Of a DNA stretch of 42,411 nucleotides, positions 3,010 to 33,439 are shown one piece after another (the stretch's first letter is position 1; each line of letters starts with the position of its first letter). Both the position numbers and the translations under genes were made by a program. Source of the DNA: Ameyamaea chiangmaiensis (GTDB lineage: Bacteria; Pseudomonadota; Alphaproteobacteria; Acetobacterales; Acetobacteraceae); the NCBI RefSeq assembly GCF_013376175.1, contig NZ_JABXXR010000013.1:1-42411 (forward strand). Reading direction: 5' to 3'. The notes under the pieces were generated by a model. It did no database searches and was not told where the DNA came from. It was given only the letters and a program-made list of their open reading frames with translations.

Positions 3010-3215
3010 TCACGCGTGCTGGCCCGACGCCTGAGGAATGGATGCTTGTGCACGTTGAGCCGTCCGCGCCGCGCCGGTGTTTGCCCAGCGGCCGTTCCGG
3101 CCGATGCGGCGGCCGGTGCCGTTCGGATCGGAGAGGGTTGAGCGGCACGGAACGGCGCGGGGCACCCTGCGCGCCAGCGGGCTGGTCGCGGACCAGTGTT
3201 CCATGTTCGGCATGA
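3006..3215 (+). CDS. Possible translationally coupled small ORF (69 aa) between kinase and phosphatase
   Basis: This ORF starts at an ATGA overlap with the kinase stop and ends at an ATGA overlap with an in-frame ATG of the phosphatase (3212). It therefore exactly bridges a 200-nt gap in an otherwise tightly coupled operon. The product is Arg/Cys-rich (5 Cys, 15 Arg) and I recognise no domain. Codon use looks less typical than in its neighbours. It may be a real small protein, a ribosome-relay ORF that keeps translation coupled, or chance. The downstream phosphatase frame is also open across this gap from 3077. Confidence 0.3.
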   Translation: MITRAGPTPEEWMLVHVEPSAPRRCLPSGRSGRCGGRCRSDRRGLSGTERRGAPCAPAGWSRTSVPCSA

Positions 3216-15537: not shown

Positions 15538-16398
15538 ATGCCTGCCGATCGCCGTGAAGACGTTCTGATTTCTGCCTCTGCGCTGGCTGGGCTGCTGGCA
15601 TCGGACCAGGCGCCGTCCGTACTGGCGATCAGGTCGCCCGATACCGTCTGTCCGCGCCCGTTTCAGGCAGCCCCCCGTATCCCCGGCGCGCAGGATGCCG
15701 AAATGACGGTGGATTTCGCCAGCCCAAGCCATCCCCGCGATGGCGCGCGCCCATTGCCGGACGTTGCAGCACTGCAGGAGACGGTGCGCCGGCTCGGGTT
15801 GCGGAAAAATCGTGCTATCGTCGTCTACGATCATGACGGCAACCTGATGGCCGCGCGTGCGTGGTGGGTGCTGCGCTGGGCGGGTTTCACGCGTGTCGTG
15901 ATGCTGGATGGTGGCTTTGAGGCCTGGGCGTCTGCGGGCTGTGCTGTGGTCACGGAGGCGTCCCCGCCACCGGTTCCAAGCGATGTCGCCATACAGCCGG
16001 GCGGGATGCCCGAACTCGACGCGGACTCGGCGGCACGGCTGGCGCGGAGCGGGGTGTTGCTGGACACGCGCATCGCCCCGAACTATCGCGGCGGCGATGT
16101 GCCGCCGGGGACGCCAGCGCGCGGTCATATTCCTGGTGCGATCAACGTCCCGGCCCCTGATACTCTGACGCCGGACGGCCATTTCGCCGATCTCGCGACC
16201 CTTCGATCGCTCTATGCCGCGACCGGTGCGGATGGCAACCGACCGGTGGGCGTCTACTGCGGGGCTGGCGTGTCGGCAGCCCACACGGTCGCGGCGCTGA
16301 TGATGCTGGGGATCGACGCGCCCATGTATCCCGGATCGTGGTCGGCCTGGAGCGCCGACCCGTCGCGCCCGGTGGCCACCGGCCCCGAGCCCGGCTGA
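15538..16398 (+). CDS. Two-domain sulfurtransferase (thiosulfate/3-mercaptopyruvate type rhodanese)
   Basis: This 286-aa protein has tandem rhodanese domains: an inactive N-terminal one (about 8-130, with V-Y-D-H-D-G-N...A-R-A-W-W-V-L-R-W-A-G) and an active C-terminal one (about 155-275). The catalytic loop is Y-C-G-A-G-V-S-A-A-H, with the persulfide-forming Cys. The typical loop is C-G-S-G-V-T-A in mercaptopyruvate sulfurtransferases or C-R-K-G-V-T in thiosulfate enzymes, so this is closer to the former. It would transfer sulfane sulfur to an acceptor. Its place beside a PatB-type C-S lyase suggests handling of sulfur released from a sulfur amino acid. The donor is not proven. Confidence 0.88.
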   Translation: MPADRREDVLISASALAGLLASDQAPSVLAIRSPDTVCPRPFQAAPRIPGAQDAEMTVDFASPSHPRDGARPLPDVAALQETVRRLGLRKNRAIVVYDHDGNLMAARAWWVLRWAGFTRVVMLDGGFEAWASAGCAVVTEASPPPVPSDVAIQPGGMPELDADSAARLARSGVLLDTRIAPNYRGGDVPPGTPARGHIPGAINVPAPDTLTPDGHFADLATLRSLYAATGADGNRPVGVYCGAGVSAAHTVAALMMLGIDAPMYPGSWSAWSADPSRPVATGPEPG

Positions 16399-16447
16399 CG
16401 GGTCGCGAGTCATCATGATCTTACCAGCCTGAAACGGAAAAAACGTT

Positions 16448-17806
16448 ATGGATCGCATTATCCTGGGGCGCATCGTAACGCCGTCGGACATTATAGAAAA
16501 TGGTTGGATCGGGATCCGCGATGGGGTGATCGCCGCCATCGGGCAGGGGCCGGCCCCTTCGGCGCTTGATGTCGTCGATGCCACCGGCAGCTATGTCATG
16601 CCCGGTGTCGTGGACGGGCAGACACATGCCGGCAGCTATGCTGGGCTGGCGGGTCTTGAATCAACGACGCGTTCGGCCATCGCGGGCGGCGTCACCACTA
16701 TTGTCGACATGCCCTATGACAATCCGGAGCCCCTGAGCACGGTCGAGCGCCTGCGGGAGAAAGTGGCGGCGATTGAGACGCTGGCACATTGCGATGTGGC
16801 ATTGTACGGCACGGTCATGCCGGGACAGGGGACGGCCGACATGGCGCCCCTGATCGACGGTGGCGTGGTTGCGTTCAAGATTTCGTCTTTTGAAAGCAGC
16901 CCTACGCGTTTTCCGCGCATTGCCGCTGACCAGACGAGCGACATTCTGGCAGCACTTGCCGAAACCGACATTCCGCTCGGCCTGCACAACGAAGATCAGG
17001 AGATGGTTCGGTCGGGGATCGCCGCGGCGCGGGCTGCGGGTCGGGACGGGATAGAGGCCCATTCGGACAGCCGCCCGATCGCCGCTGAGATGACTGCATC
17101 GGCTGCTTTTTTCGAACTTGGGGCAGCACACGGCGCGCACGCGCACATCGTGCATTTTACGACAGCACGAGGCATGGAGTTGGCGGATCAGTATCAGGCG
17201 CTCGGCTATCGCGCGACGGGTGAGACCTGCGTTCACTATCTGGTTCTCGATCCGCAGGAGCACGGACCGGCGCTGGGCGCGCGCATGAAGGTGAACCCGC
17301 CCATTCGTCCCGGGGCTCGAGATGGTCTGTGGAATGAAATCCTGCACGAGCGCGTGGCCTTCGTCAGTTCCGATCATTCGAGTTGGCCGATCGACAACAA
17401 GTTCACGCCCTCGATCTTCGACGCCGGCGCGGGCGTTCCCGGACTCGAAACACTGCTGCCCGCGTTTTTTACCGAGGCCGAGCGACGCGGTTATGACGCG
17501 CCCGCGCTGACGGCGGCGCAGTTGAGCGAGCGTCCGGCGAAGTTTTTCGGTCTGTGGCCGCAAAAAGGTGGTTTGTGCGTCGGGGCGGACGCCGATATCG
17601 CGATCTTTACGCCGGGCGAGCACGTCTGGGACAGCGCGGCGGCGCATGACGACCTGAAATGGAGCCCGTTCGATGGGCACCGTTTCACCGGGCGTGTCTC
17701 GCGCACGTATTTGCGCGGAGAAACGGCATGGGACGGCAGCGACGTCGTTAACAGGCCGGGGGCAGGTGAATACGTCCGGCGCGGCCTGTGGCACTGGTTC
17801 GCCTGA
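16448..17806 (+). CDS. Allantoinase/hydantoinase-like cyclic amidohydrolase
   Basis: This 452-aa member of the amidohydrolase superfamily (dihydroorotase/allantoinase/dihydropyrimidinase branch) would open a cyclic amide or ureide ring. Recognisable elements are P-G-V-V-D-G-Q-T-H-A-G near residue 60, A-G-G-V-T-T-I-V-D-M-P, candidate carboxylated Lys in A-F-K-I-S-S-F, G-L-H-N-E-D, H-I-V-H-F, G-E-T-C-V-H-Y and the Asp in F-V-S-S-D-H-S-S-W. The first metal His of the usual D-x-H-x-H is Gln (D-G-Q-T-H), so metal binding may differ from classical allantoinases. With the racemase and the N-carbamoyl hydrolase it forms the core of a three-step racemise, open and decarbamoylate route. Substrate unassigned. 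Confidence 0.85.
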   Translation: MDRIILGRIVTPSDIIENGWIGIRDGVIAAIGQGPAPSALDVVDATGSYVMPGVVDGQTHAGSYAGLAGLESTTRSAIAGGVTTIVDMPYDNPEPLSTVERLREKVAAIETLAHCDVALYGTVMPGQGTADMAPLIDGGVVAFKISSFESSPTRFPRIAADQTSDILAALAETDIPLGLHNEDQEMVRSGIAAARAAGRDGIEAHSDSRPIAAEMTASAAFFELGAAHGAHAHIVHFTTARGMELADQYQALGYRATGETCVHYLVLDPQEHGPALGARMKVNPPIRPGARDGLWNEILHERVAFVSSDHSSWPIDNKFTPSIFDAGAGVPGLETLLPAFFTEAERRGYDAPALTAAQLSERPAKFFGLWPQKGGLCVGADADIAIFTPGEHVWDSAAAHDDLKWSPFDGHRFTGRVSRTYLRGETAWDGSDVVNRPGAGEYVRRGLWHWFA

Positions 17807-17829
17807 AGACGAAACGGAGGGCGAACCCG

Positions 17830-18984
17830 ATGACATTCGATTTCGACGCGACCATCGATCGCCGTGGGACCGGCAGCAACAAATGGACGCGCTATCCCGC
17901 TGATATCCTGCCCATGTGGGTGGCGGATACCGATTTCGCCGTCGCGCCAGCGATTGTCGATGCCGTCCGCAGACGCGCCGAACACCCGGTTTTCGGCTAC
18001 GCCGTCGCGCAGGACAGTCTGCGCGCGCAGATCGTCACGGAACTGCGCGCCCGTTTCGACTGGGTGATCAGTCCGGCCGATATCGTTCTGCTGCCGGGGG
18101 TGGAACCGGGCTTCAACATGGCGATGAAGGCGTTTCTACGCCCGGGCGATTCGATCGCGGTCCAGACGCCGATATACCGCCCGATCCTGCGCGCGCCGGG
18201 CCACTGGGGGCTTACGCGGCGTGATATTCGCCTCGATCCGGGTGCGTCGGGGGACTGGGCACTCGATCTTGCGCAGTTCGAGACGCAGATGGCCGGTGCG
18301 GGGGCGTTCCTGCTGTGTAATCCGCATAACCCGTCCGGAAAAGTCTATTCCCGGACGGAGCTTCTGGGGATTGCCGACATCTGCGCACGACACGATGCGT
18401 TGATCATCTCGGATGAAATCCATGGCGATCTGGTGTTCGACGGCCGAGTTCACACGCCGATCGCCAGCCTGTCCCCCGATATCGCGCGGCGAACCATCAC
18501 CCTGATGGCGGCGAGCAAGACGTATAATATTGCGGGTCTGAAAACCGCTTTTGCCATCATCACCGATCCTGACATCCGTGTACGGTTCGAGGCGCATCGC
18601 CTTGGCATGGTCGACAGCGTCAACCTGTTCGGCCTGGTGGCGACCGAAGCGGCGTTGGCGGGCGGCGCCGAGTGGCGCGACGCGCAGCTTGCCTATCTGC
18701 AGGCCAATCGCGACGTTCTGGTCGAGACGATCCGCGCGACCATGCCCGGCATCACGCTGCATGCGCCGCAGGCGACATTCCTCGCATGGCTCGACTGTTC
18801 CGCACTTGAACTGGGCGAGGAGCCGCACGCCTTTTTTCTGCGCCATGCCAAGGTCGCACTCAGCGCCGGGAACGAATTTCATGAGACTGAAACGAAGGAT
18901 TTCGTCCGCCTGAATTTCGGCTGCACGCGGGCGACCCTGCTTGAGGGGCTGGACCGCATGCGGCAAAGCCTCCAGCGCCGCTGA
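17830..18984 (+). CDS. PatB/MalY-type PLP-dependent C-S lyase or aminotransferase
   Basis: This 384-aa fold-type I PLP enzyme begins F-D-F-D-A-T-I-D-R-R-G-T-G-S-N-K-W, the PatB/MalY family signature (cystathionine beta-lyase-like). Other motifs are L-P-M-W-V-A-D-T-D-F, L-L-C-N-P-H-N-P-S-G-K, I-S-D-E-I-H-G-D-L-V, the PLP lysine in A-A-S-K-T-Y-N-I-A-G-L and R-L-N-F-G-C. Family members cleave the C-S bond of cysteine conjugates or cystathionine, giving pyruvate, ammonia and a thiol. The start at 17830 follows CGGAGGG by about 9 nt; an in-frame ATG at 17788 overlaps the previous gene and is unlikely. The stop shares one base with the next ATG (TGATG). Confidence 0.92.
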   Translation: MTFDFDATIDRRGTGSNKWTRYPADILPMWVADTDFAVAPAIVDAVRRRAEHPVFGYAVAQDSLRAQIVTELRARFDWVISPADIVLLPGVEPGFNMAMKAFLRPGDSIAVQTPIYRPILRAPGHWGLTRRDIRLDPGASGDWALDLAQFETQMAGAGAFLLCNPHNPSGKVYSRTELLGIADICARHDALIISDEIHGDLVFDGRVHTPIASLSPDIARRTITLMAASKTYNIAGLKTAFAIITDPDIRVRFEAHRLGMVDSVNLFGLVATEAALAGGAEWRDAQLAYLQANRDVLVETIRATMPGITLHAPQATFLAWLDCSALELGEEPHAFFLRHAKVALSAGNEFHETETKDFVRLNFGCTRATLLEGLDRMRQSLQRR

Positions 18985-19973
18985 TGCAGCCGCATCCGCC
19001 TGCCGGCACTAACGCATCGGTCCTGGATGTGGCCGCACTGACGGTCGCGACGCGGGACAACGCCGTCGTGATCGTGAACGACCTTACGTTGCACGTGCGG
19101 GCGGGGGAAATGCTGGCACTGCTGGGGGAGTCGGGTTGCGGCAAAAGCATGACGTCGCTGGCGTTGATGCGGTTGGCGGACGGGCTGAACACCAGCGGCC
19201 GTATTACGCTGCTGGGTCGGGATATCGCGACCTTGCCGGAGAAAGCGATGTCGCCGATCCGTGGGCGCGAGATCGCGATGATCTTTCAGAACCCGATGTC
19301 GGCCCTCAATCCGGTGCGCAGCGTGGGCCAGCAGATTTCGGAAACGATCCGCCGTCATAAGGGCCTGTCGCGCAAGGCCGCCCGACAGCGGGCGATCGCG
19401 TTGCTTGGCGAGGTGGGATTGGCCGACCCGGTGCGCTGTTACGATGCCTATGCGCACGAATTGTCGGGCGGCATGTGCCAGCGCGTGATGATCGCAATGG
19501 CCATTTCCTGTGATCCGGCGCTCCTGATTGCCGACGAACCGACCACGGCGCTGGATGTGACGATCCAGAAGCAGATCATGGACCTTCTCCATGCCTTGAA
19601 GATCCGCCGTGGCATGGGGATTCTCATGATTACGCACGATCTGGGCGTTGTCGCGGCCTATGCCGATCGGGTGGCCGTAATGTATGCCGGGCGCGTGGTC
19701 GAACAGGGCGATGTGCACGCCCTGTTTTCGGCCCCACACCATCCTTACACGCGTGGGTTGATGGATTCGATGCCGGATCTGGCGGATACGTCCGATCGCT
19801 TCCATGCCATTCCCGGCATGGTCCCGGAGTTGCGGGCCCTCCCGCCGGGATGCAGTTTCGCACCGCGCTGCACCCGCGCCGACGTGCAGTGCACACACGT
19901 TTTCCCTGGGCACACGATGGTCGACCGGAATGGGTTCGTGCGCTGCTTTCACCCCCTGCAGGTGGCGGCGTGA
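18984..19973 (+). CDS. Dipeptide/oligopeptide-type ABC transporter ATP-binding protein (DppD-like)
   Basis: This 329-aa ATPase of a peptide/nickel-type importer has Walker A G-E-S-G-C-G-K-S, signature L-S-G-G-M-C-Q-R, Walker B L-L-I-A-D-E-P-T-T-A-L-D and switch His in I-T-H-D-L-G. The C-terminal oligopeptide-type extension has the Cys cluster (P-P-G-C-S-F-A-P-R-C...D-V-Q-C). It pairs with the next gene as a heterodimeric ATPase and serves the permeases at 26316-28150. It overlaps the C-S lyase by one base. Confidence 0.95.
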   Translation: MQPHPPAGTNASVLDVAALTVATRDNAVVIVNDLTLHVRAGEMLALLGESGCGKSMTSLALMRLADGLNTSGRITLLGRDIATLPEKAMSPIRGREIAMIFQNPMSALNPVRSVGQQISETIRRHKGLSRKAARQRAIALLGEVGLADPVRCYDAYAHELSGGMCQRVMIAMAISCDPALLIADEPTTALDVTIQKQIMDLLHALKIRRGMGILMITHDLGVVAAYADRVAVMYAGRVVEQGDVHALFSAPHHPYTRGLMDSMPDLADTSDRFHAIPGMVPELRALPPGCSFAPRCTRADVQCTHVFPGHTMVDRNGFVRCFHPLQVAA

Positions 19974-20926
19974 CGGCCCTCCTGCGGTTCGACGCGGTGA
20001 CGAAGTCCTACGGCCGCCCCTCGCGCTTTCCCTGGCGAGGGCCGGCCGCGACCCCGGTCCTGCACGGTATTTCGCTGACGGTCGCGCGCGGCGAGACCGT
20101 TGGGATCGTGGGTGAAAGCGGCAGTGGAAAATCCACACTCGGCCGCATGGCGCTGCGGCTTGTCTCACCGACGCGGGGGCGTGTGCTTTTTGACGGGCAC
20201 GATATCACCGCGATGTCCGAACGCGAGTTTCGGCCGTTTCGGTCGCGGGTGCAGATGATTTTCCAGGATCCGCATAACGCGCTCGATCCTGCCATCAGCG
20301 TTGGCGATTCGGTCTCCGAGGCGCTGGAGGCCACGCAACCCGCTCTGTCGCGCTCTGAACGGGGTGAGCGCGTGGCAGCACTTTTGCAGCAGGTGGGGCT
20401 GAACCCGCTGTCCGCCGGGCGTCGACCGCACGCGTTTTCGGGCGGCCAAAAGCAGCGCATCGGCATCGCGCGGGCACTGGCGACGAGGCCGGAGCTGATC
20501 GTCGCGGACGAATCGGTCTCGGCGCTCGACGTCTCGGTGCAGGCGCATATTCTTAATCTCATGCACGATCTTCGCGAACAGCTGGGCCTTGCCTATCTGT
20601 TCATCGCGCATGACCTTGCCGTCGTGCGGCGTGTCAGTCACCGGGTCGCCGTTCTTTATCGCGGGCGCATCGTGGAGGCAGGCGGCCGAGACGCGCTGTT
20701 CGACACGCCGCTGCATCCCTATACGCGGATGCTGCTGCGTTCTGTCCCGCGCACGCACCCCTTGTCGGAGGCGCCGGCGCCGGGCGCTCCCGCCGAGCCG
20801 CAGGAGCCCGTCGCCGGGTGTCCATTTTACACACGCTGCGCAGAGCGCATGGACATATGTCGCCACGTCGATCCGCCGGCCCGCACCGTCGTCGCCGGGC
20901 ACGACGTCGCGTGCCACGCGGCATGA
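19970..20926 (+). CDS. Dipeptide/oligopeptide-type ABC transporter ATP-binding protein (DppF-like)
   Basis: This 318-aa second ATPase starts at a GTG that overlaps the previous stop (GTGA). The frame is open further upstream but inside the preceding gene. Walker A is G-E-S-G-S-G-K-S-T, the signature F-S-G-G-Q-K-Q-R, and Walker B L-I-V-A-D-E-S-V-S-A-L-D, with Ser instead of the usual Pro after Glu. The C-terminal Cys cluster G-C-P-F-Y-T-R-C-A...C is present. Together with DppD-like it powers uptake through the DppBC-like channel encoded 5 kb downstream in the same operon. Confidence 0.95.
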   Translation: MTALLRFDAVTKSYGRPSRFPWRGPAATPVLHGISLTVARGETVGIVGESGSGKSTLGRMALRLVSPTRGRVLFDGHDITAMSEREFRPFRSRVQMIFQDPHNALDPAISVGDSVSEALEATQPALSRSERGERVAALLQQVGLNPLSAGRRPHAFSGGQKQRIGIARALATRPELIVADESVSALDVSVQAHILNLMHDLREQLGLAYLFIAHDLAVVRRVSHRVAVLYRGRIVEAGGRDALFDTPLHPYTRMLLRSVPRTHPLSEAPAPGAPAEPQEPVAGCPFYTRCAERMDICRHVDPPARTVVAGHDVACHAA

Positions 20927-21039
20927 CCGTCATGACAGACGCTTCAATTTTGCCAAAACCTGCTCTGACGTACGTGTGTGTCGATACGACGCGTGAACAG
21001 GGCGCGTCTTGCCACAAGGATCGGATCGCGCCGCGATGA
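20923..21039 (+). CDS. Possible translationally coupled small ORF (38 aa)
   Basis: This ORF starts at an ATGA overlap with the DppF-like stop (20923-20926) and stops in an ATGA overlap with the start of the following hydrolase (21036-21039). It thus exactly fills the 109-nt gap. The product begins M-T-V-M-T-D-A-S-I-L-P-K-P and shows no domain or signal peptide. It is either a small protein or a coupling ORF; chance cannot be excluded. Confidence 0.3.
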   Translation: MTVMTDASILPKPALTYVCVDTTREQGASCHKDRIAPR

Positions 21040-22286: not shown

Positions 22287-22326
22287 ACCCACGCCGCCAT
22301 TTTCACCCCAGCACGGGAGACCTCCC

Positions 22327-23658: not shown

Positions 23659-23662
23659 CCGA

Positions 23663-24610
23663 ATGGCGGACTGCTTCGTCGTGCAGCCGATCCATCCGGC
23701 GGGCGTCGACCTGTTGCGTGCCGCGGGCCACGACGTGCGGTTCGCGTCGTCGCCGGACATGGCCGTGGTGGCGCGCGAAATCGGCGATGCCCGCGCCGTC
23801 ATCACGCGCGACGCCGGGATGGATGCGCGCGCCATCGGGGCGGCGCGTGATCTGGGTCACATCGCAAGCCATGGCGTCGGCGTTAATCGCGTCGATCTGA
23901 TCGCCGCGCGTGCTCGCCAGATAATGGTGACGAACACCCCGCAGACCAACGTGCGGTCAGTGGCCGAGCACACCATCGGCCTGATGTTCGCACTGGCGCG
24001 ACGGACGCTTGACGCCGATGCGGCCGTGCGTGCGGGCGACTGGGGGTTTCGCTACCAGCCCGGCCTGCACGAACTGCACGGCAAGACGCTGGGCCTCGTC
24101 GGCTTCGGCACGATTGCGCGGGCCGTGGCATCGATGGCGCGCCATGGGCTGGGCATGACGGTCCTGGCATGGTCGCCACGCACGCCGGAGGCGGTTTTCG
24201 AAGCAGACGGCGTAGCGCGCGTGCCGGATCTGCCGGATCTGCTTCAGCGGTCTGATGTGGTGTCCCTTCACCGACCGTTACGTGCCGACACGATCACCAT
24301 GATCGACGATGCCGCGCTGCGCGTCCTGCGGCCCGGTGCGTTGTTGATCAACACGGGGCGCGGTGGCCTGATCGATGTGTCCGCGCTGGGCCGTGCGCTG
24401 GCCGATGGGCGGGTGGGGGCGGCGGCACTCGATGTGTTCACGACCGAACCACCGGCACCGGACGATCCGGTCCTGTCGCTGCCGCGCACTATATTGACAC
24501 CCCATATCGGCGGCACGACAGAGGAGGCCATGCGCGCGACGTCATGCCTGTGTGCCCGGCAGGTGATTGACCGGCTGGCGGGCCGCACGCCCGACCACGT
24601 CGTTGCGTAA
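23663..24610 (+). CDS. D-2-hydroxyacid dehydrogenase (D-isomer specific, NAD-binding)
   Basis: This 315-aa enzyme interconverts a 2-oxo acid and a D-2-hydroxy acid. The NAD fold shows L-G-L-V-G-F-G-T-I-A, the catalytic Arg is in L-I-N-T-G-R-G-G-L-I-D, the Glu in D-V-F-T-T-E-P-P-A and the His in T-P-H-I-G-G-T-T. The G-V-G-V-N-R-V-D segment is also typical. It starts 4 nt after the CapA stop. In context it could reduce the 2-oxo acid left after deamination of the pathway's amino acid; that is inference. The stop at 24608 closes the first block of the operon before a promoter-like gap. Confidence 0.93.
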   Translation: MADCFVVQPIHPAGVDLLRAAGHDVRFASSPDMAVVAREIGDARAVITRDAGMDARAIGAARDLGHIASHGVGVNRVDLIAARARQIMVTNTPQTNVRSVAEHTIGLMFALARRTLDADAAVRAGDWGFRYQPGLHELHGKTLGLVGFGTIARAVASMARHGLGMTVLAWSPRTPEAVFEADGVARVPDLPDLLQRSDVVSLHRPLRADTITMIDDAALRVLRPGALLINTGRGGLIDVSALGRALADGRVGAAALDVFTTEPPAPDDPVLSLPRTILTPHIGGTTEEAMRATSCLCARQVIDRLAGRTPDHVVA

Positions 24611-24714: not shown

Positions 24715-26319
24715 ATGTCCACGGCCGCCCCGCTTCGTCCCTGCCGCCGCGCGGTTCTGGCCTCGGGTCTCGGCATGGGGGCGGCCACCGTTCTGGACGT
24801 GGTGCCCGCAGGCGCAAGGCCTTCGCACGATGATATTCTCGTCGTAGCCATCGGCTCCGATCCTGTCGGGCTGGAGCCTGCGGACAATCGGGCGGAGCCG
24901 ATCGGAAGCGAAATCATTCTGAACGTGTTCGACCCGCTGGTGGCGTGGGCGTCTGATACGGACGCCGAGCCCGAAGGTCGACTGGCCGAGCGCTGGCGCG
25001 TTTCCGCCGACGGAACCCGTTACAGCTTCGTCGTGCGCGAGGGAGTGACGTTTCATGATGGCACGCCGCTGGACGCGGAGGCCGTGCGGTTTTCGCTCGA
25101 ACGTACACGGCGACTGAACCCCTACATGCGGGCGAGCCTGGATGCGCTGCAGTCGATCACGGTGACCGGCCCGCTGACGCTGGATTTCGAATTGTCCCGG
25201 CCGGTTCCGTTCTTTTTGTCGCTGCTGGCCCAGCCCCAAAGCGGGATCGTCAGTCCCACGGCGGTTCGGACGCTGGGGCGGGATTTTTCCACGCGACCGG
25301 TGGGGACGGGTGCCTTTCGTGTGGATCGCTACGTGCCGGACGTCGGACTGACGCTGTCGCGCAATCCGTCCTATTTTCGTGGAGCGTCGCGGCTGTCCTA
25401 CCTCGTGTATCGTGTGATCGCCGATGCCTCCACCCGCAGGCTGGAGCTCGAGCGCGGCGAGATCGACGTCTGCCAGCAGAACGCGCAGTTATCGTCGCTG
25501 CCGATGGCTGACATACTTTCCTTCCGCCGCAACCCCGATATTCAGGTGATCGAGGTGCCCAGCCAGATCATGCGGCAGCTGGACTTCAACAATCGGGCCA
25601 CCGGTCGGCCCGTCGCCGATCTGCGCGTGCGGCAGGCGGTCGCGCATGCGATCGATTATGACGCGCTCATCGATGGGGTTCTGGCCGGAACCGTTGATCG
25701 CGCCTTCGGTCCGTTGCCCGGCAGCAACTGGGCGTTCGACCCCTCGATGCGTGATCTAGCGCCCTGCTTCGATCCGGCCCAGGCCGTTGCGTTGCTGTCC
25801 GAAGCCGGGTTCGGACCCGGTGCGCTGCACCTGACCCTGTATACGTTCGAAGGGACATTCTGGGCCACGGTGGCGACGTTCCTGCAGTCCTGTCTGGCGG
25901 CCGTCGGGATCAGGACCACCATCGAACAGATGGAGTTTCCCTCCCTGCGCGCCCTTCACGTTTCCGGCCGCTTCGATACGGCGCTGGACGGCCGGGAGCC
26001 CTGGTATAACGATCCGGACGCCCACCTCACGATCGGTTATCTGTCCACACTTGCCGAAACCGCCATGACATTCCGCATGCCACCCGATCCCGCCATGGAC
26101 GGCCTGATCCTTCAGGCACAGGTCGAGACTGATCCGTCACGGCGCAAGGCGCTGTATGCGACGCTTCAGGCGCGGCTTCTGGCACGCCTGCCCGCCGTGT
26201 ACCTGTTTACCAACAAGGTGATCGTGTTCGCGCGTCGCAATGTGCGGGGACTGGTGGTCAAATCCACGCCACCGCTGAGCGAATACTGGGGCGTGTTCAA
26301 GGAGGCGCGGTCGGGATGA
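24715..26319 (+). CDS. ABC transporter substrate-binding protein, family 5 (peptide type), probably Tat-exported
   Basis: This 534-aa periplasmic binding protein has an N-terminal C-R-R-A-V-L-A-S-G-L-G-M-G-A-A segment, a twin-arginine-like signal ending near P-A-G-A-R. The mature part shows the SBP_bac_5 pattern: D-P-V-G-L-E-P, N-V-F-D-P-L-V, L-A-E-R-W-R-V-S-A-D-G-T-R-Y-S-F-V-V-R-E-G-V-T-F-H-D-G-T-P and A-V-A-H-A-I-D-Y-D-A-L-I. It delivers ligand to the DppBC-like permease encoded directly downstream, which it overlaps by ATGA. SD-like CGGAG at 24705-24709. Ligands of this family range from peptides to opines and other small amides. Confidence 0.94.
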   Translation: MSTAAPLRPCRRAVLASGLGMGAATVLDVVPAGARPSHDDILVVAIGSDPVGLEPADNRAEPIGSEIILNVFDPLVAWASDTDAEPEGRLAERWRVSADGTRYSFVVREGVTFHDGTPLDAEAVRFSLERTRRLNPYMRASLDALQSITVTGPLTLDFELSRPVPFFLSLLAQPQSGIVSPTAVRTLGRDFSTRPVGTGAFRVDRYVPDVGLTLSRNPSYFRGASRLSYLVYRVIADASTRRLELERGEIDVCQQNAQLSSLPMADILSFRRNPDIQVIEVPSQIMRQLDFNNRATGRPVADLRVRQAVAHAIDYDALIDGVLAGTVDRAFGPLPGSNWAFDPSMRDLAPCFDPAQAVALLSEAGFGPGALHLTLYTFEGTFWATVATFLQSCLAAVGIRTTIEQMEFPSLRALHVSGRFDTALDGREPWYNDPDAHLTIGYLSTLAETAMTFRMPPDPAMDGLILQAQVETDPSRRKALYATLQARLLARLPAVYLFTNKVIVFARRNVRGLVVKSTPPLSEYWGVFKEARSG

Positions 26320-27329
26320 GCGCGTATATGGCACGCCGGATCATGGCCATGATCCCTGTTCTGGGGCTGGTGTTGCTGATCGTCTTCGGCCTGACGCGGA
26401 TGATTCCGGGCGATCCGGCGGTGACCCTGCTGGGCCCGGGTGCCACGAACGCCCAGATCAGTGCGTTGCGCCACGAACTGCGTCTCGATCGGCCGGCTGC
26501 GTTGCAATTCGTCGACTATGTTGCGGGGCTGGCCCGCGGTGATCTCGGCACGTCCATCCGGACCGGGCGTCCGGTGACGGACGCGTTGGCCACCCGTCTG
26601 CCCGCAACGATGGAGCTGGCGGTGATGGCCTTCGTGCTGGCGCTGACGGTCGGCGTGCCCGCCGGTGTTCTGGCCGCGCGGCGCCCGGGCGGCGGTGTGG
26701 ATTGTGCGTTGCAGTTCTGTTCGCTGTGCGGAGTGTCGATCCCGGCCTTTCTGCTGGCGTTCGGCTTGCAATATGTGTTCAGCGCGTGGCTGGGGTGGCT
26801 GCCCGTCGCGGGCCGCACCAGCGCGTTCATGATCGATGACGGGCGTGGCGGCTTCCTGCTGCTGGACAGTCTTCTGCGATGCGATGTCGCAACCTTTGCC
26901 GACCTGCTCGCGCATATCATTCTGCCGGCCATGGTGCTGGCGGCGTTTCTCACCGCCATGCTCGGCCGTTTTCTGCGCAATGTGATGATCGAGACCCTGT
27001 CGGAGGATTATATCCGAACGGCGCGGGCCAAAGGCATGAAAGAGGGGCAGATCCTGCTTGCGCATGCGCTTCCGAACGCGGCCGGACCGGCCATCATGAT
27101 TCTTGGCGTGCAGTTCGGTGATATGCTGGGGGGCGCGATCCTGACCGAGACCGTGTTTTCCTGGCCGGGAATCGGGCGCTACATGTTCGAAGCCATTCGC
27201 GATCGCGATTATCCTGTCATTCAAAGCACGACGCTGGTCTTTGCGATCATCTTCATGACCGTATCCCTCGGCGCGGACGTCCTGAGCGCCCGGATCGATC
27301 CCCGTTTGCGGCGCGAGCGTGCGCGATGA
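26316..27329 (+). CDS. ABC transporter permease (DppB-like)
   Basis: This 337-aa inner-membrane permease has about six hydrophobic helices and the N-terminal family signature Y-M-A-R-R-I-M-A-M-I-P-V. It also has R-M-I-P-G-D-P-A-V, L-D-R-P...Y-V-A-G-L-A-R-G-D-L-G-T-S, and the EAA coupling loop R-T-A-R-A-K-G-M-K-E-G-Q-I-L-L-A-H-A-L-P-N-A. ATGA overlaps link it to the binding protein before it and to the DppC-like gene after it. Confidence 0.95.
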   Translation: MSAYMARRIMAMIPVLGLVLLIVFGLTRMIPGDPAVTLLGPGATNAQISALRHELRLDRPAALQFVDYVAGLARGDLGTSIRTGRPVTDALATRLPATMELAVMAFVLALTVGVPAGVLAARRPGGGVDCALQFCSLCGVSIPAFLLAFGLQYVFSAWLGWLPVAGRTSAFMIDDGRGGFLLLDSLLRCDVATFADLLAHIILPAMVLAAFLTAMLGRFLRNVMIETLSEDYIRTARAKGMKEGQILLAHALPNAAGPAIMILGVQFGDMLGGAILTETVFSWPGIGRYMFEAIRDRDYPVIQSTTLVFAIIFMTVSLGADVLSARIDPRLRRERAR

Positions 27330-28150
27330 CGCGCTGTCTTCGCCATATGCTCGCCCATCGCGGTGGACGGGCGGGAGTGGTCATTCTGGGCATCATGATT
27401 GCCCTGATTGCAATCGCGCCGCTGGTGACACCGGGCATGCCCGACCATATGGACGTGACCCGGATGTTGCAGGCGCCGAGCCGGACGCATCCTCTCGGCA
27501 CGGATCTGTTCGGGCGTGACGTGCTGACACGCACCCTGTATGGCGGTCGTCATACGCTGGCGATCGGGCTGGGTGTGGTGGCGATTGCCTTTGCCGTCGG
27601 GGTGGGTGTGGGGACTGTCGCCGGTTTCCGGGGTGGACTGTTCGATGCCGTGGCGATGCGTATCGTCGACGCGGTCCTCAGTTTTCCCGCGCTTGTTCTG
27701 GCGATCGCGCTGGCCGCTGCCCTTGGGCCGGGACTGCTGGACGCGATGCTGGCGATCGCCATCACGATGACACCCCAGTTCGCCCGTCTGGCACGGCGTC
27801 AGGCGCAGCATATTTCGGGCATGCTCTATGTCGAGGCTGCGCGCGTGCTGGGGGTCGGGAGCCTGCGGATCATGGCGCGCCATGTGCTGCGCAACGGTAT
27901 CGCGCCGATGGTGACACTGGCATCGTTGTCGGTGGGATCGGCGATTCTTCAGGTGTCCAGCCTGGGGTTTCTGGGGCTGGGGGCGCAGCCGCCGTCGGCC
28001 GAATGGGGTGCGGATATTGCGGCCAATCTGGATTTCGTTCGCGTCGCCCCGTGGGTGTTGATGAGTGCGGGTGCGGCGATCATGCTGACGGTCCTGTCGT
28101 TCAATCTGATCGCTGATGCGATGTCTGATTACCTCAACCCGAAGGTATGA
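27326..28150 (+). CDS. ABC transporter permease (DppC-like)
   Basis: This 274-aa partner permease has about six hydrophobic helices. Family motifs are H-P-L-G-T-D-L-F-G-R-D-V-L-T-R-T-L-Y-G-G-R near residue 50, and the EAA loop E-A-A-R-V-L-G-V-G-S-L-R-I-M-A-R-H-V-L-R-N. The C-terminal segment S-S-L-G-F-L-G-L-G-A-Q-P-P-S-A-E-W-G is also typical. It forms the channel with the DppB-like protein. The ATPases are encoded in the upstream block of the operon (18984-20926). Confidence 0.95.
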   Translation: MTRCLRHMLAHRGGRAGVVILGIMIALIAIAPLVTPGMPDHMDVTRMLQAPSRTHPLGTDLFGRDVLTRTLYGGRHTLAIGLGVVAIAFAVGVGVGTVAGFRGGLFDAVAMRIVDAVLSFPALVLAIALAAALGPGLLDAMLAIAITMTPQFARLARRQAQHISGMLYVEAARVLGVGSLRIMARHVLRNGIAPMVTLASLSVGSAILQVSSLGFLGLGAQPPSAEWGADIAANLDFVRVAPWVLMSAGAAIMLTVLSFNLIADAMSDYLNPKV

Positions 28151-28153
28151 GCG

Positions 28154-29569
28154 GTGGACGCCCGAATGACCAACACACGCCCTGATGACGTGCATATCGT
28201 GCAGGAAAAGGTGGACTTTCTGCCACCCGACCGGGTGACGGACGACCGCAGTATCCTCACGCTCAAATCCCTTGTGATGGAACCGCTGTGCGCATGGACC
28301 GACGGGCGTGTCGAGGCCGGCCTGTTCGACCGGTGGGAGGTGGACGAGACCGGCTGTGTCTGGACGTTTCATCTCCGCCCGGATCCGGTTTTTCATGATG
28401 GGCACCGCTGCACGGCTCGGGACGTCGTCGATTTCGTGGACGCGATCAGCGCATCCGTTGATACGTTTGGCATGAAGTGGTCATATGCGCGCTACTTCGC
28501 ACATGCACGGTTCGTGGCGGCATCGGAATCGACAATGCGCGTGACGACCGCGCGTCCCATGGGCGATCTGCCGGAAATTTTCACCGAATTCTATCTGTCC
28601 CGTACCGATCCGGAGGGAAACGCGACCATCGGCACCGGCCCCTTTCGTGTGGACGCTTTCACGCGCGCCACATCGGTCCGGTTGAGCGATGCCCAGGGAC
28701 GCAGAATGAGGATCGACGCCCTGCCGAACGCGGAGGCGCGTCTGGCGGAGGTCGTGGCCGGGCGTGCGGACATCGCGTGCCAGCTCGATTGTCTGGAGAG
28801 GCTGCCCCGCCGGGAGGGGCCGTTGCAGTGGATTCACGCCACGCACTGCCTGTCGGTGATGGCGTATCTGAATTGCGCGCGCGGGTTGTTCGCGTCCGAC
28901 GTGGCGCGGCGGGCCGTGAACCTGGCGATCGACAGGCAGTCCCTGTGCCGGCAGGTTTATCACGGCCTGGCGCGCCCTGCGGCGACGATCGTCAGCCCAT
29001 GGCACTGTGGTGCTTCGCAGGCCGGGCTTCATCCGATCGACTACGATCCCGACACGGCGCGCGCGATGCTTCGAACGCTCGACTTTCGCGAGGAACTGGT
29101 GCTGCGGACTCCGACATATATGCCTGAACATGCCGTCGGGATCGCGCATGTCATCAAGGACGCACTTCAGCATGTCGGCCTGGAAGTACGCATCGATGTG
29201 GCGGACGACAGGCCGGGCTATGCGCGCGCGATAGGACGCAAGGACATGGGCGATATCGCCATATTCGATTCGTCGCCGCATAGCACATTCCGTGTCCTGA
29301 ACGACAAGATCAGCAGTTCCAGCCGGGGCGTCTGGTGGCAGGGCTTTGACGACCCCGCGCTTGAGGGCCTGATCACCACGGCGAACGAGACCATCGATCC
29401 GCAGCGTCGGGCCGTAGCCTATGGTCGGTGTCTGTCGGCGCTGCAGACCAATCCTCCTTGGCTATACCTGGTTCATCCCGAGACACTGGCGGCCGCGCGG
29501 GCCGGACTGGGCGGACTGTCCGTGGATCATAAAGGTATCATGCATTTCACGAAGGAAGCGTTCTCATGA
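28154..29569 (+). CDS. Second family-5 substrate-binding-like protein, no visible signal peptide
   Basis: This 471-aa protein has the SBP_bac_5 pattern: W-E-V-D-E-T-G-C-V-W-T-F-H-L-R-P-D-P-V-F-H-D-G-H, G-T-G-P-F-R-V-D-A-F, R-R-A-V-N-L-A-I-D-R-Q-S-L and P-W-L-Y-L-V-H-P. Its N-terminus is polar (M-D-A-R-M-T-N-T-R-P-D-D...) with no hydrophobic core, Tat motif or lipobox. It is also about 60 residues shorter than the first binding protein, lacking that protein's leader and linker. Either the start is wrong or the protein stays in the cytoplasm. It starts at GTG 28154; ATG 28166 is the alternative. An ATGA overlap joins it to the VOC gene. Confidence 0.85.
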   Translation: MDARMTNTRPDDVHIVQEKVDFLPPDRVTDDRSILTLKSLVMEPLCAWTDGRVEAGLFDRWEVDETGCVWTFHLRPDPVFHDGHRCTARDVVDFVDAISASVDTFGMKWSYARYFAHARFVAASESTMRVTTARPMGDLPEIFTEFYLSRTDPEGNATIGTGPFRVDAFTRATSVRLSDAQGRRMRIDALPNAEARLAEVVAGRADIACQLDCLERLPRREGPLQWIHATHCLSVMAYLNCARGLFASDVARRAVNLAIDRQSLCRQVYHGLARPAATIVSPWHCGASQAGLHPIDYDPDTARAMLRTLDFREELVLRTPTYMPEHAVGIAHVIKDALQHVGLEVRIDVADDRPGYARAIGRKDMGDIAIFDSSPHSTFRVLNDKISSSSRGVWWQGFDDPALEGLITTANETIDPQRRAVAYGRCLSALQTNPPWLYLVHPETLAAARAGLGGLSVDHKGIMHFTKEAFS

Positions 29570-29952
29570 AGCAAGACTATACCATCACGTTTTTTTATTA
29601 CGAGAACATGGCGTCCGTCATTCCGTTTTACGAAGAGGTGTTGGGATTCGAGCTGGTGCTGGATCAGGGCATGGCGCGCATATACCGTGTCGGGGAAGGA
29701 AGTTACTTCGGCATGGTTGACGGCAATCGCGGTCATTTGCGGCATCAGCCACACAGTGCGGTGCTGCTGACCATCGTTGCCCAGGATGTCGAGGGCTGGC
29801 ATGCCCGCATGGTGGCCGCGGGGGTGCCGAACGTAAGCACTCTTCAAAAAGGACGCTTCTGCGAGCACTTCTTTTTTGAAGATCCCGCCGGCTATGCGAT
29901 CGAAATCCAGCGCTTTCACAACCCCTCGGTCGCCGCGCTGTTCCGGGGGTGA
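29566..29952 (+). CDS. VOC superfamily (glyoxalase/bleomycin-resistance-like) protein
   Basis: This 128-aa protein has two beta-alpha-beta-beta-beta halves: I-T-F-F-Y-Y-E-N-M-A-S-V-I-P-F-Y-E-E-V-L-G-F-E-L-V, then a second half ending F-F-F-E-D-P-A-G-Y-A-I-E-I-Q-R-F with the conserved metal-type Glu. The usual first metal His is not obvious, so activity or metal may be atypical. It sits between the second binding protein and the NTPase-FGE fusion, with ATGA and GTGA overlaps on either side. Family members are lyases, dioxygenases, epimerases or binding proteins; the function here is unknown. Confidence 0.82.
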   Translation: MKQDYTITFFYYENMASVIPFYEEVLGFELVLDQGMARIYRVGEGSYFGMVDGNRGHLRHQPHSAVLLTIVAQDVEGWHARMVAAGVPNVSTLQKGRFCEHFFFEDPAGYAIEIQRFHNPSVAALFRG

Positions 29953-32000
29953 CGTCTATGACCACTCTGTATGTCCGGGGGCGGGACCTGATCCGCCGCT
30001 TCGGGGATGCCCCTCTCGTCTGGGGAGCGGGCGGGGACTCTCTCGCCGTGCATCAGGCGTATATTCCGCTGCTGGTCAGCTACACGCAGGAGGATATGGA
30101 GGCCAAGGGTCTTCGCAAGCTGGACGATCCGACCGCGCCTCGTCCGCCCGTGCATTTCACGGCGCTGGACATGGTAAGCCGGGAACGCGGTTGTCTTCTG
30201 TCCGGAGACACCGGTTCCGGGAAAACGAGTTTTTCACTCGACCTGGCTCTCAATCTCGCCGGGGAACTGGTCGGGGACCGCCGCTATGGTCTGAAGGCTC
30301 TCACGCGGATGGTGGCGCGTAACGGGGCGGGCACGCGCCGGCAGGAAAGCTGGAGTGGGCCGGTCCCCGAGCCGGTCCTGTACAGGGTCGAAGACGGTGA
30401 CGACTGGGATCATGTTATCCGGACGTTGACCGATGAAGGTCTTCTGGAGGCAAACACGCTCCTGATTATTGACGGGCTGGAAAAATGTCCTGACCCTGAA
30501 TCTATCCTTCGTAACGCGGCGGCTTTGCTGGAGGCGCATTCCGCGCTGCGGGTCGTCGTGTTGGCGGATGGCTATTTCTGCCGGGGTCTGGCCGTGCCGG
30601 ACGCATTTGCCCCGTTCTCCCTGATCGCCCTGAACGACGCACAGAAGGCCGATGCACTGGCAAGGCGTGCGTGTCGGGCGGATGCGGACGGCATGCCTGC
30701 ACGACCGGACCTGTTCGTCGCCGCGATGGCCGTCGGCGGGGCGGCCGGTGCCGACCCGGTCGCGGTCGCCGACGCGTGGCTGCACGCACAGTCGGACGAA
30801 CGTCGGGCGGCACTTGCCACCGCCGCCGTGGCCGACGGCCAGCCGGTAGGCGCTGACAGGCTGATCACGTCGGATTTCGCCCGAACGATACTGTATCCCG
30901 TGTTGGCTGCACGTGCGTTTTCCATGCTGCCTGCGCACGATGTTCTGGTCCGTGTCGCGCAGTCCCCGCTCCGCTGGCGTTCCACGATCCCCCTTCTTGC
31001 GATGGTCCTGCGCGAACGTGGTCAGGGGACGACGGCACTGGCGCGGGGGCTGCTCGAGCTTTCCGACCGCTGGGCGATCGGGCTCTTGTCAGCCGCCGCA
31101 CTCTGCGTGACATCGACGGACGACGACGATCTGCTGCGGGCCGCGCGGCGCGCCCTGACCACGATGATCGCGCAAGGCGGGGCGACGCTTGCGCTGCGCG
31201 ACCAGGCGGCGCGATACCTCGCCCTCGTTGGTGACCCGCGTGCGCTGGATACGCTGATCGACGTGCCGCCCGGGCGCAGTGTCATCGGGTCGGACACGCA
31301 TCCGAATTCGCAGCCGGTGCACGCCGTTAGGCTGGCGGGCTATCGCATCGGCCGGTACCCCGTCACGGTGGCGGCCTACGGCGCCTTCGTGCGCGAGACG
31401 GGCCGCGCGTGGACATCGCCCGATGCTGCGAGAGCCGAGCGCGCGAACGCACCCGCCACGGACGTGACGTGGTATGACGCCTGTGCCTATTGTGCGTGGC
31501 TGACGCAACGCTGGCGTGCTGAAGGTCGAATTGCGGCCGACGAGGTGGTGCGGCTTCCCACCGAAATGGAATGGGAACGCGCGGCGCGGGGGGATCACCC
31601 CGACGAGTCCGGCGCCGTCGTGTATCCCTGGGTAGGAGCGTGGAGGGCGGGATGGTCGAATTCCGCCGAACTGGGCCTGAACACTCCGGTTGCCGTGGGG
31701 CTGTGTGCCTACGGGCGCTCTCCCTACGGCGCGGATGACATGGCGGGTAACATCTGGGAGTGGACGACGACGCTATGGGGCCCGGACATGGCGACCCCCG
31801 ATTTCGCCTATCCGTACCGCGACGATGGGCGCGAGGCCCCTGATGCGGATGTCTCGATCCGGCGGGTCCTCCGTGGCGGGTGCTTTTCCAGCAATCGCCT
31901 GAAAGCGTGTTGCACCTATCGCGGCAGTCTGGAGCCGAACGGCTTCTGGCGCGGGAACGGCTTCCGTGTCGTCGTATCGTCAGCGGATCCGCGAGCCTAA
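29949..32000 (+). CDS. P-loop NTPase (STAND/NACHT-like) fused to FGE-sulfatase (SUMF1/EgtB/PvdO) domain
   Basis: The 683-aa protein has, in its N-terminal half, a P-loop NTPase: Walker A G-D-T-G-S-G-K-T at 86-93 and Walker B L-L-I-I-D-G at 170-175. A largely helical region follows to about residue 420. The C-terminal 250 residues form an FGE-sulfatase domain: D-V-P-P-G-R-S-V-I-G-S-D, Y-R-I-G-R-Y-P-V-T-V-A-A-Y, D-V-T-W-Y-D-A-C-A-Y-C-A-W-L, R-L-P-T-E-M-E-W-E-R-A-A-R-G, D-M-A-G-N-I-W-E-W and R-V-L-R-G-G-C-F...N-G-F-R-V-V. The two catalytic Cys of true formylglycine-generating enzyme are not at their usual places (Cys residues lie nearby), so a binding or other role is possible. It starts at GTG 29949 (GTGA overlap) or ATG 29958. 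No signal peptide. Confidence 0.85.
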   Translation: MTSMTTLYVRGRDLIRRFGDAPLVWGAGGDSLAVHQAYIPLLVSYTQEDMEAKGLRKLDDPTAPRPPVHFTALDMVSRERGCLLSGDTGSGKTSFSLDLALNLAGELVGDRRYGLKALTRMVARNGAGTRRQESWSGPVPEPVLYRVEDGDDWDHVIRTLTDEGLLEANTLLIIDGLEKCPDPESILRNAAALLEAHSALRVVVLADGYFCRGLAVPDAFAPFSLIALNDAQKADALARRACRADADGMPARPDLFVAAMAVGGAAGADPVAVADAWLHAQSDERRAALATAAVADGQPVGADRLITSDFARTILYPVLAARAFSMLPAHDVLVRVAQSPLRWRSTIPLLAMVLRERGQGTTALARGLLELSDRWAIGLLSAAALCVTSTDDDDLLRAARRALTTMIAQGGATLALRDQAARYLALVGDPRALDTLIDVPPGRSVIGSDTHPNSQPVHAVRLAGYRIGRYPVTVAAYGAFVRETGRAWTSPDAARAERANAPATDVTWYDACAYCAWLTQRWRAEGRIAADEVVRLPTEMEWERAARGDHPDESGAVVYPWVGAWRAGWSNSAELGLNTPVAVGLCAYGRSPYGADDMAGNIWEWTTTLWGPDMATPDFAYPYRDDGREAPDADVSIRRVLRGGCFSSNRLKACCTYRGSLEPNGFWRGNGFRVVVSSADPRA

Positions 32001-32014
32001 ACAGGAGGTCGAAT

Positions 32015-32428
32015 ATGAAAAGCGTTTTTCATCTTGCCTATAACGTCGATAATCTTGACGAGGCACGAGATTTCTACGGACAAACACTGGGCTGCGCGGA
32101 AGGACGGAGCGCGCCGACATGGGTGGATTTCAACTTTTTCGGTCATGAAATTTCGCTGCATCTCGGAACACCTTTCGTGGCCCAGAACACGGGGCGTGTG
32201 GGCGAACATCTCGTACCGATGCCGCATCTGGGCGTGATTTTGCCGCTCGACGACTGGCGGGTTCTGGCGGATCGGCTTGTCGCGTTGCACGTCGATTTTG
32301 TGTTGCCGCCGACGGTGCGCTTCAAAGGGGAGCCCGGCGAGCAATGGACGATGTTCTTTCGTGATCCGTCAGGAAATCCGATAGAAATAAAGGGTTTTGC
32401 GTCGATGGATGCGGTGTTCGCGAAATAG
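32015..32428 (+). CDS. VOC superfamily protein
   Basis: This 137-aa protein begins M-K-S-V-F-H-L-A-Y-N-V-D-N-L-D-E-A-R-D-F-Y, with the first metal-type His at residue 6. A strong AGGAGG (32003-32008) lies 6 nt before the ATG. Further metal-type residues are H in G-H-E-I-S-L-H-L and Glu in S-G-N-P-I-E-I-K-G-F. The ligand set looks complete, unlike the VOC protein at 29566. It closes the catabolic operon; the next sequence is transposase debris. Confidence 0.88.
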   Translation: MKSVFHLAYNVDNLDEARDFYGQTLGCAEGRSAPTWVDFNFFGHEISLHLGTPFVAQNTGRVGEHLVPMPHLGVILPLDDWRVLADRLVALHVDFVLPPTVRFKGEPGEQWTMFFRDPSGNPIEIKGFASMDAVFAK

Positions 32429-32461: not shown

Positions 32462-33439
32462 GAGGTTCTGTTGGCAGAAAGTCTTCTCAGACTGGCTTGG
32501 ACGTGATTCAAAGCTGGTCTTTACGGAGACCGTTGAATGCGTGGCGACCTGACCGACGAAGAATGAGCGATTATTGGCAATCTTCTGCCGCCTGAACGTG
32601 GTCTTTCGTCCCGACTATCGCAGGATAATCCTCTATTTTTCAACGGAATGCTTTATGTCCTGCATGTCGGTTGTCCATGGCGGCACATGCATGAGCGCTA
32701 CGGAAAATGGAACGCGGTGTATGTGCGGTTCCGTCGATGGGCAGAGCAAGGACAGCACGGTCGTTCGGGCTCACAGCCAGGCGGTTGGCGCAAAAGGGGG
32801 ACTCAGAAGGACGGCTTTGGTCGAAGCCGCGGCGGCTTTGCGAGCAAGGTCCACGCCCGTGCTGACGGTCAGGGACGCCCTCTTGGCTTTGACCTGACGG
32901 GTGGTGAAGTTTCTGCTTATTCCGGCGCTGATGCCCTGATGGACCTGCCGGTCGTGACACCGCGCCGACTTCTGGCCGACAAGGGGTATGATAGTGACAG
33001 GATACGGGAGACCCTGCTTTTTCGAGGTGTTCTTCCCGTCATCCCGCCACGTTCGAACCGGCCACCGGACATTCCCTGCGATTTCCGCCGATACCGTGAC
33101 TGAAATCGTTTCGAAAGGATGTTCAACACGCTCAAGAAGTTCTGCCGTATCGCCACCTGCTATGACAAAACGAGGAAATCCTTCGTCGCCTTTCTCAATC
33201 TCGCTACCGTCACGTTGTGGCTACCATCTTTTGTCAAAGGAGCCTGCCCGCTATCTGGTCGTCTCTTTGTCGAAGGGTATGAAAAACCTCTTATGAGCAC
33301 GAGATCCTTCGCGAGCATCTCGGACTGCCGGTTCCTGACAATCGCTGGTCGGTCGAACGATCGCGCGCAGCGGAGGCACGGACACCGGCGGCGTCCAGGC
33401 GTGTGGAGCGTCCTGTCATGCACGCCAACAGCCGTCCTC
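32462..33439 (+). mobile_element. Remnant of an IS5-family insertion sequence (ends uncertain)
   Basis: The transposase pseudogene marks an old IS copy. A possible pair of ends is GAGG-TT-CTGTTGGC at 32462-32475 facing GCCAACAG-ccgt-CCTC at 33424-33439, sharing 12 of the bases in inverted orientation. No target-site duplication is evident, and the right end lies about 200 nt past the transposase homology, more than usual. The boundaries are therefore a guess. Confidence 0.35.
32537..33243 (+). pseudogene. IS5-family (IS427-like) transposase, inactivated
   Basis: Read from ATG 32537 the frame gives M-R-G-D-L-T-D-E-E then TGA (32564-32566, probably once Trp). It continues with typical transposase sequence (P-P-E-R-G...F-F-N-G-M-L-Y-V-L, G-C-P-W-R, H-E-R-Y-G-K-W-N-A-V-Y). 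After R-R-W-A-E-Q-G a block of roughly 25-35 codons, including the segment before D-S-T-V-V-R-A-H-S-Q, is missing and the frame changes. D-S-T-V-V-R-A-H-S-Q and the slippery AAAAGGGGGA (about 32794) followed by T-Q-K-D-G-F-G-R-S-R-G-G fit the family's two-frame expression. A second stop (TGA 33101-33103) replaces an Arg codon before N-R-F-E-R-M-F-N. Similarity ends near P-S-F-V-K. It is not functional. Confidence 0.88.

Follow-up and report, generated by a model that had tools for sequence, protein, structure and literature searches.

What does a protein that joins a P-loop NTPase to an FGE/SUMF1-type domain do in an ABC-importer operon? The question is raised by an open reading frame in a 42,411-nucleotide stretch of Ameyamaea chiangmaiensis DNA (contig NZ_JABXXR010000013.1; the window). 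Current work on bacterial NACHT proteins and their STAND relatives centres on an antiphage role. The first-pass annotation had thought of signalling and defence, and had called such an NTPase unexpected in a catabolic operon.

Domain organization of the NACHT-FGE protein

The reading frame is open at exactly 29949-32000 on the plus strand and encodes 683 amino acids. Its candidate start codon, GTG at 29949, overlaps the stop codon of the preceding VOC gene (GTGA); the ATG at 29958, 9 nt further on, is equally plausible. From the N to the C terminus, the protein consists of a conserved motif, a P-loop NTPase, a central helical region of HEAT-like type, and a domain with the FGE/SUMF1 fold.

29949..32000, plus strand: NACHT-like NTPase/helical/FGE-fold protein, 683 amino acids; start perhaps ATG 29958
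30066..30164, plus strand: N-terminal family motif, residues 40-72 (P-L-x5-ED-xx-AKGLR...A), matching no known domain
30171..30734, plus strand: NACHT-like P-loop domain, about residues 75-262, from hhalign to the NACHT set; sub-threshold in Pfam
30204..30227, plus strand: Walker A GDTGSGKT, residues 86-93; Lys in 13 of 14, Thr-93 in 14 of 14
30459..30482, plus strand: Walker B LLIIDGLE, residues 171-178; Asp-175 invariant
30735..31247, plus strand: all-helical HEAT-like region, residues 263-433, from the AlphaFold model and an alphaRep match
31248..31976, plus strand: FGE/SUMF1-fold domain, residues 434-676, from Pfam and fold match
31875..31916, plus strand: segment GGCFSSNRLKACCT, with Ser-648 and Ala-653 in the catalytic Cys columns, from the alignment with L001

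The combination of NTPase and FGE domain reported in the first-pass annotation is thus real, as the frame, the Walker motifs, and the Pfam match of the FGE part (see below) demonstrate. None of the homologues turned out to be a simple enzyme without a P-loop; both halves are present in all 14 full-length homologues. Because they are conserved across families, the observed features are not due to chance.

The P-loop motifs are well preserved. Thr-93 and Asp-175 are found in all 14 homologues, and the Walker A lysine is replaced only in L129 (by arginine), where the NTPase region is also shorter and the FGE part is retained. The Walker B aspartate is followed by Gly, Ala, or Thr in 11 of 14 rows, and an acidic residue stands at position +3 in every row. 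In Pfam searches with the single sequence, NACHT (15.2 bits, cut-off 26.7) and nSTAND3 (17.1 bits, cut-off 27.2) remain sub-threshold, as does AAA; NACHT/nSTAND scores span 15-21 bits against cut-offs of 26.7-27.2. We therefore compared profiles, using the family alignment around residues 64-290 as hhalign query and, as NACHT set, FGE-bearing proteins whose NACHT domain exceeds the Pfam cut-off (L019, L026, L042, and L055). The family profile matched this set with 98.2% probability over 202 columns, and with 97.5% over 141 columns when rerun with other settings, whereas 20 column-shuffled controls reached 0.2% or less. Other P-loop sets gave 0-15% (KAP and ABC 0.1-0.2%, nSTAND1 and AAA_35 11-15%), in a comparison of sets that are small and of unequal depth. 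When proteins were compared singly, L019 and L026 gave 95-97% and L042 and L055 only 4-23%; some other P-loop proteins reached up to 63%, over 19-30 columns only.

This whole-domain match to bona fide NACHT domains supports a NACHT-type assignment of the NTPase. Of the original STAND/NACHT proposal, the profile-profile comparison with its clean controls thus sustains the class, and the single-sequence Pfam scores do not. The AlphaFold model is poor over the NTPase part (pLDDT 30-80) and of low confidence where a STAND winged-helix domain would follow the helical domain; the winged-helix domain and the sensor arginine of a full STAND protein are putative here. A fold search with this model returned no NACHT structures, but FGE chains fill its list, which makes this negative uninformative.

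The helical middle ends in an invariant GDPR linker (residues 428-431), and its family profile matches alphaRep solenoids (E 1.5e-5). At the other end of the protein, 10 of 45 columns are invariant over residues 30-74, around the N-terminal motif. Pfam recognizes no effector domain, the N terminus carrying only the conserved 33-residue motif, and no HTH or other DNA-binding domain anywhere in the protein. By Pfam, the protein thus lacks the DNA-binding output domain of a MalT-type regulator.

The FGE-fold domain has lost the catalytic cysteine pair

Pfam assigns residues 434-675 to FGE-sulfatase with 138.4 bits (E 4e-40), covering profile positions 3-254 of 255. The AlphaFold model superposes on FGE-fold chains with Z scores of 24-28; ToxD is the closest solved structure, and PvdO and CalU17 are also among the closest. 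As a positive control for the cysteine alignment we used L001, the other FGE protein of this genome, in which both catalytic cysteines are present. Aligned to L001, these positions are Ser-648 and Ala-653 in all 14 homologues, and the earlier remark that the cysteine pair is out of register thus holds, and does so for the whole clade. Cys-645 is invariant but out of register, and Cys-655 and Cys-656 are not invariant. Together with Cys-645, the residues Lys-652, Glu-662, and Trp-667 are invariant in the pocket.

Loss of both copper-binding cysteine columns throughout the 14 homologues rules out true FGE activity. An EgtB/OvoA-type sulfoxide synthase is likewise ruled out (68 bits against an equivalog cut-off of 360), and Pfam shows no DinB domain. 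In EgtB, the DinB-type domain supplies iron ligands; here, the NTPase occupies the N-terminal place that this domain has in EgtB/OvoA. Outside the clade, signalling proteins (TIR, kinase, nSTAND1, and NACHT proteins) are among those with the nearest FGE domains.

A rare clade with a conserved FGE domain and a variable NTPase

Full-length homologues are found in Gluconobacter albidus (75% identity), Gluconacetobacter, and other Acetobacteraceae; Allorhizobium, Rhizobium, Neorhizobium, Terrarubrum, and Alloyangia carry them on large replicons. They form one clade (support 100/99) that comprises Acetobacteraceae, Rhizobiaceae, Terrarubrum, and Alloyangia, with Hyphomicrobiales and Rhodobacterales represented. 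Since a class-wide sample of 385 genomes held no further copy, the clade is rare and patchy. The copy in Neorhizobium sp. EC2-8 (L119) is interrupted in its NTPase part as well as in its FGE part, which may reflect a pseudogene or sequencing errors.

Conservation is distributed unevenly along the protein. The FGE domain shows a mean pairwise identity of 66% with 91 of 243 columns invariant, whereas the stretch from the P-loop to Walker B shows 38% (7 of 106 columns) and the helical part 33% (13 of 200 columns). Identity rises to 81% in the last 43 residues of the FGE domain, the pocket-side segment 634-676. Judging from the fold, this segment corresponds to the part that is diversified by DGRs in related proteins (PMC10907252). 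No reverse transcriptase (RVT_1) was found in the genome assembly, which is 94.6% complete, and a DGR target is ruled out by this result and by a C-terminal FGE segment that is conserved rather than hypervariable. A frozen FGE domain on a loose NTPase is the reverse of a diversifying defence sensor. A conserved FGE domain, a drifting NTPase, and the failure to find a reverse transcriptase together make the clade appear suited to a single ligand or partner rather than to changing targets.

The gene is part of an importer operon

The NACHT-FGE gene is preceded by the following genes.

24715..26319, plus strand: SBP1, exported solute-binding protein with a normal signal peptide
26316..27329, plus strand: importer permease 1
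27326..28150, plus strand: importer permease 2
28154..29569, plus strand: SBP2, SBP5-fold protein without a signal peptide
29566..29952, plus strand: VOC1, directly upstream of NACHT-FGE and translationally coupled to it

The order SBP1, permease 1, permease 2, (SBP2), VOC1, NACHT-FGE was found at every locus examined; SBP2 is absent in L125, L127, and L129. Where the start could be called, the NACHT-FGE start overlaps the VOC1 stop or lies within 18 nt of it, and the translational coupling read from the GTGA overlap is thus an arrangement kept in homologous loci. Of 397 Acetobacteraceae genomes, 7 encode SBP1 (at E 1e-110 or better), and these are precisely the 7 with full-length NACHT-FGE; no SBP1 at that level lacks NACHT-FGE. 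As the genes are physically linked, this co-occurrence counts as one shared unit and not as independent evidence.

VOC1 is less strictly bound. At an identity of at least 60% it occurs in 14 genomes, 7 of which lack NACHT-FGE, ruling out an obligate partnership in both directions. Orthologues in L166-L172 have neither importer nor NACHT-FGE nearby; in L167 and L169 the orthologue lies beside SBP2 and a rhodanese gene, and L169 additionally has isochorismatase-type and PuuE-like hydrolases. Metal-dependent VOC enzymes usually have histidines in the first and fifth strands. These are missing in 22 VOC1 orthologues, with ligand positions assigned from the general VOC pattern, and VOC1 may therefore be a binding protein. 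For VOC1, AlphaFold with three input sequences reached a mean pLDDT of only 56, and this poor model was discarded.

SBP2 begins a few residues before its first strand and is leaderless, unlike SBP1 of the same operon. Orthologues are found in L003, L113, L115-L117, L119, L121, L167, and L169. A conserved SBP2 without a signal peptide is, by prediction, a cytoplasmic solute-binding protein, which is unusual.

Downstream of NACHT-FGE, at 32015-32428, comes another VOC gene, preceded by a good ribosome-binding site; no orthologue stands at the corresponding place in the other loci. Transposase-like fragments (32574-33103) lie just past it, and in Alloyangia (L118, 10727-11899) an annotated IS5 transposase directly follows NACHT-FGE.

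Further upstream in the window lies a catabolic gene cluster.

15538..17806, plus strand: rhodanese and ErtD-like hydantoinase of the same cluster
17833..18984, plus strand: PatB/MalY-family C-S lyase (404 bits, cut-off 340)
18984..20926, plus strand: two Opp/Dpp-type ABC ATPase subunits

The C-S lyase matches MalY itself with an E value of 1e-52; it is missing from the neighbourhood retrieved for several NACHT-FGE loci. Together, positions 15538-24610 encode a sulfur/hydantoin catabolic set of rhodanese, ErtD-like hydantoinase, PatB C-S lyase, and N-carbamoyl amidohydrolase, in addition to an MslH-like PGA_cap protein and a 2-hydroxyacid dehydrogenase. The rhizobial clusters add rhodanese, ATPases, a GntR regulator, hydantoin racemase, ErtD-like hydantoinase, a DHDPS-family protein, an SDR, and a PatB/MalY-type lyase. 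An ergothioneine-degradation cluster, considered because of the ErtD/ErtE-like enzymes, was not supported (ErtD 502 against a cut-off of 600), and a literature search was of no help here. In a separate set (326-4776), the open reading frames read as a HAMP-type sensor, a Ser/Thr kinase, a PP2C-like phosphatase, and an OmpR-type regulator in consecutive order.

Proposed function and alternatives

We tentatively propose, with a probability of about 0.4, that the protein is a NACHT-type STAND nucleotide switch that acts as the cytoplasmic partner of one SBP5-type ABC importer, with an FGE domain specific for a single, fixed ligand. Its function, comprising ligand binding, ATP switching, and contact-mediated output, is what we infer from the domains and their context. 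The FGE-fold domain would be a retained binding pocket rather than a formylglycine enzyme, and one conserved ligand or partner is proposed because of its high identity and many invariant columns compared with the NTPase. Most likely, this pocket would accept the compound taken up by the importer, one of its degradation products, or a partner protein. The helical linker would connect binding with the exchange of ATP and ADP by the NACHT domain. The N-terminal motif may pass the output on by contact with another protein, perhaps VOC1 or the transporter; contact is proposed because no DNA-binding or toxic effector domain is recognized, and for the same reason the output is a guess. An unlikely extension of this proposal sees a domesticated sensor of NACHT immune architecture that gates uptake or catabolism of one importer by contact, with two neighbouring gene products, the leaderless SBP2 and the VOC protein devoid of the usual metal ligands, serving as further cytoplasmic and apparently non-catalytic binding folds.

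The frozen FGE pocket would also suit an enzyme of other chemistry, and the main rival to the switch, which we consider rather improbable, is that the FGE domain acts in this way on an imported sulfur or hydantoin compound, the NACHT/HEAT part being left over from a regulatory or scaffolding role. PvdO-type proteins are supposed to use non-FGE chemistry. PvdO, CalU17, and ToxD of the toxoflavin cluster, all among the closest structures, are FGE folds of small-molecule pathways, and the rhodanese, C-S lyase, hydantoinase, and racemase genes would fit such a role. So would the persistence of segment 634-676 while the NTPase drifts, and L129, which keeps an intact FGE part without the Walker A lysine. 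However, the copper cysteine pair is missing in all homologues, there is no DinB-type domain in Pfam to provide EgtB-like iron ligands, and an enzyme would have no need of the P-loop that 13 of the 14 homologues conserve.

Alternatively, the protein could be an AAA-like chaperone or assembly factor that docks through its FGE domain and uses ATP to remodel or load VOC1 or the importer. In favour are its translational coupling to VOC1 and the strict importer linkage. Yet VOC1 does not need NACHT-FGE, because half of the genomes with VOC1 lack it, and the NACHT comparison is better than that with the other P-loop classes tried; we regard a chaperone as quite unlikely. Very improbable is an antiphage or conflict protein (of the bacterial NACHT/Avs type or a DGR target) that sits in a metabolic cluster by chance, even though DGR targets and presumed conflict systems are known in which NACHT or nSTAND domains are joined to FGE (PMC10907252, PMC7159879). 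PADLOC gives no solid match, only weak P-loop-level similarity (13 bits for the window), and the segment that DGRs would diversify is the most conserved part here. One fixed importer context is kept across Acetobacteraceae, Hyphomicrobiales, and Rhodobacterales. Importer linkage, a frozen sensor, and a genome in which no reverse transcriptase was found thus argue against a defence role, one of the two contexts named in the first-pass annotation.

The conservation of NACHT-FGE in an uptake-and-breakdown cluster suggests that immune-type switches serve nutrient metabolism and not defence only. If the proposed switch is real, this importer-locked clade with its frozen sensor would be the same machine put to metabolic use, as MalT is in another STAND class. 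The clade is also a small and tractable system in which the search for the ligand can be rational, since the importer and the adjoining catabolic genes restrict the candidates.

Comparison with known systems

The architecture, which had been taken as unusual, is known; its importer context is new. NACHT/nSTAND-FGE proteins occur in putative conflict systems and as DGR targets (PMC10907252), and FGE effectors (PMC7159879) and caspase-FGE proteins (PMC3501461) have been described. In the open-access literature searched, we found no description of this clade or of an obligate importer partnership. With the C-type-lectin-fold proteins of DGR and conflict systems (PMC10907252, PMC7159879), the clade shares the order of STAND NTPase, often a linker, and C-terminal FGE domain, and relatives such as L011 and L019 likewise have a GDPR-type linker. 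Unlike them, it has no known effector or adapter domain, its pocket is frozen, and it is tied to an importer; the genome of the window yielded no reverse transcriptase.

FGE/SUMF1, EgtB, and PvdO share the fold, but here the cysteine pair and the DinB domain are absent and P-loop and helical parts are added. ToxD (PDB code 7spq) from the toxoflavin cluster is the closest solved structure by both sequence and fold, including part of the helical linker, but it has no P-loop domain and belongs to another pathway.

Contrary to what had been expected at this locus, STAND proteins do occur close to catabolism. The nearest functional precedent, MalT, runs the maltose system; MalK, the ATPase of the importer, and the C-S lyase MalY restrain it in the absence of maltotriose (PMC10427625). 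The NACHT-FGE protein differs from MalT in its NACHT-type NTPase, in an FGE fold in place of the TPR sensor, and in having no DNA-binding domain. Nevertheless, it would resemble MalT of Escherichia coli (PMC10427625, PMC6468293) as a STAND-class NTPase in a catabolic system linked to an ABC importer, and the cluster of the window, though not the surroundings of all NACHT-FGE genes, likewise includes a MalY/PatB-family lyase.
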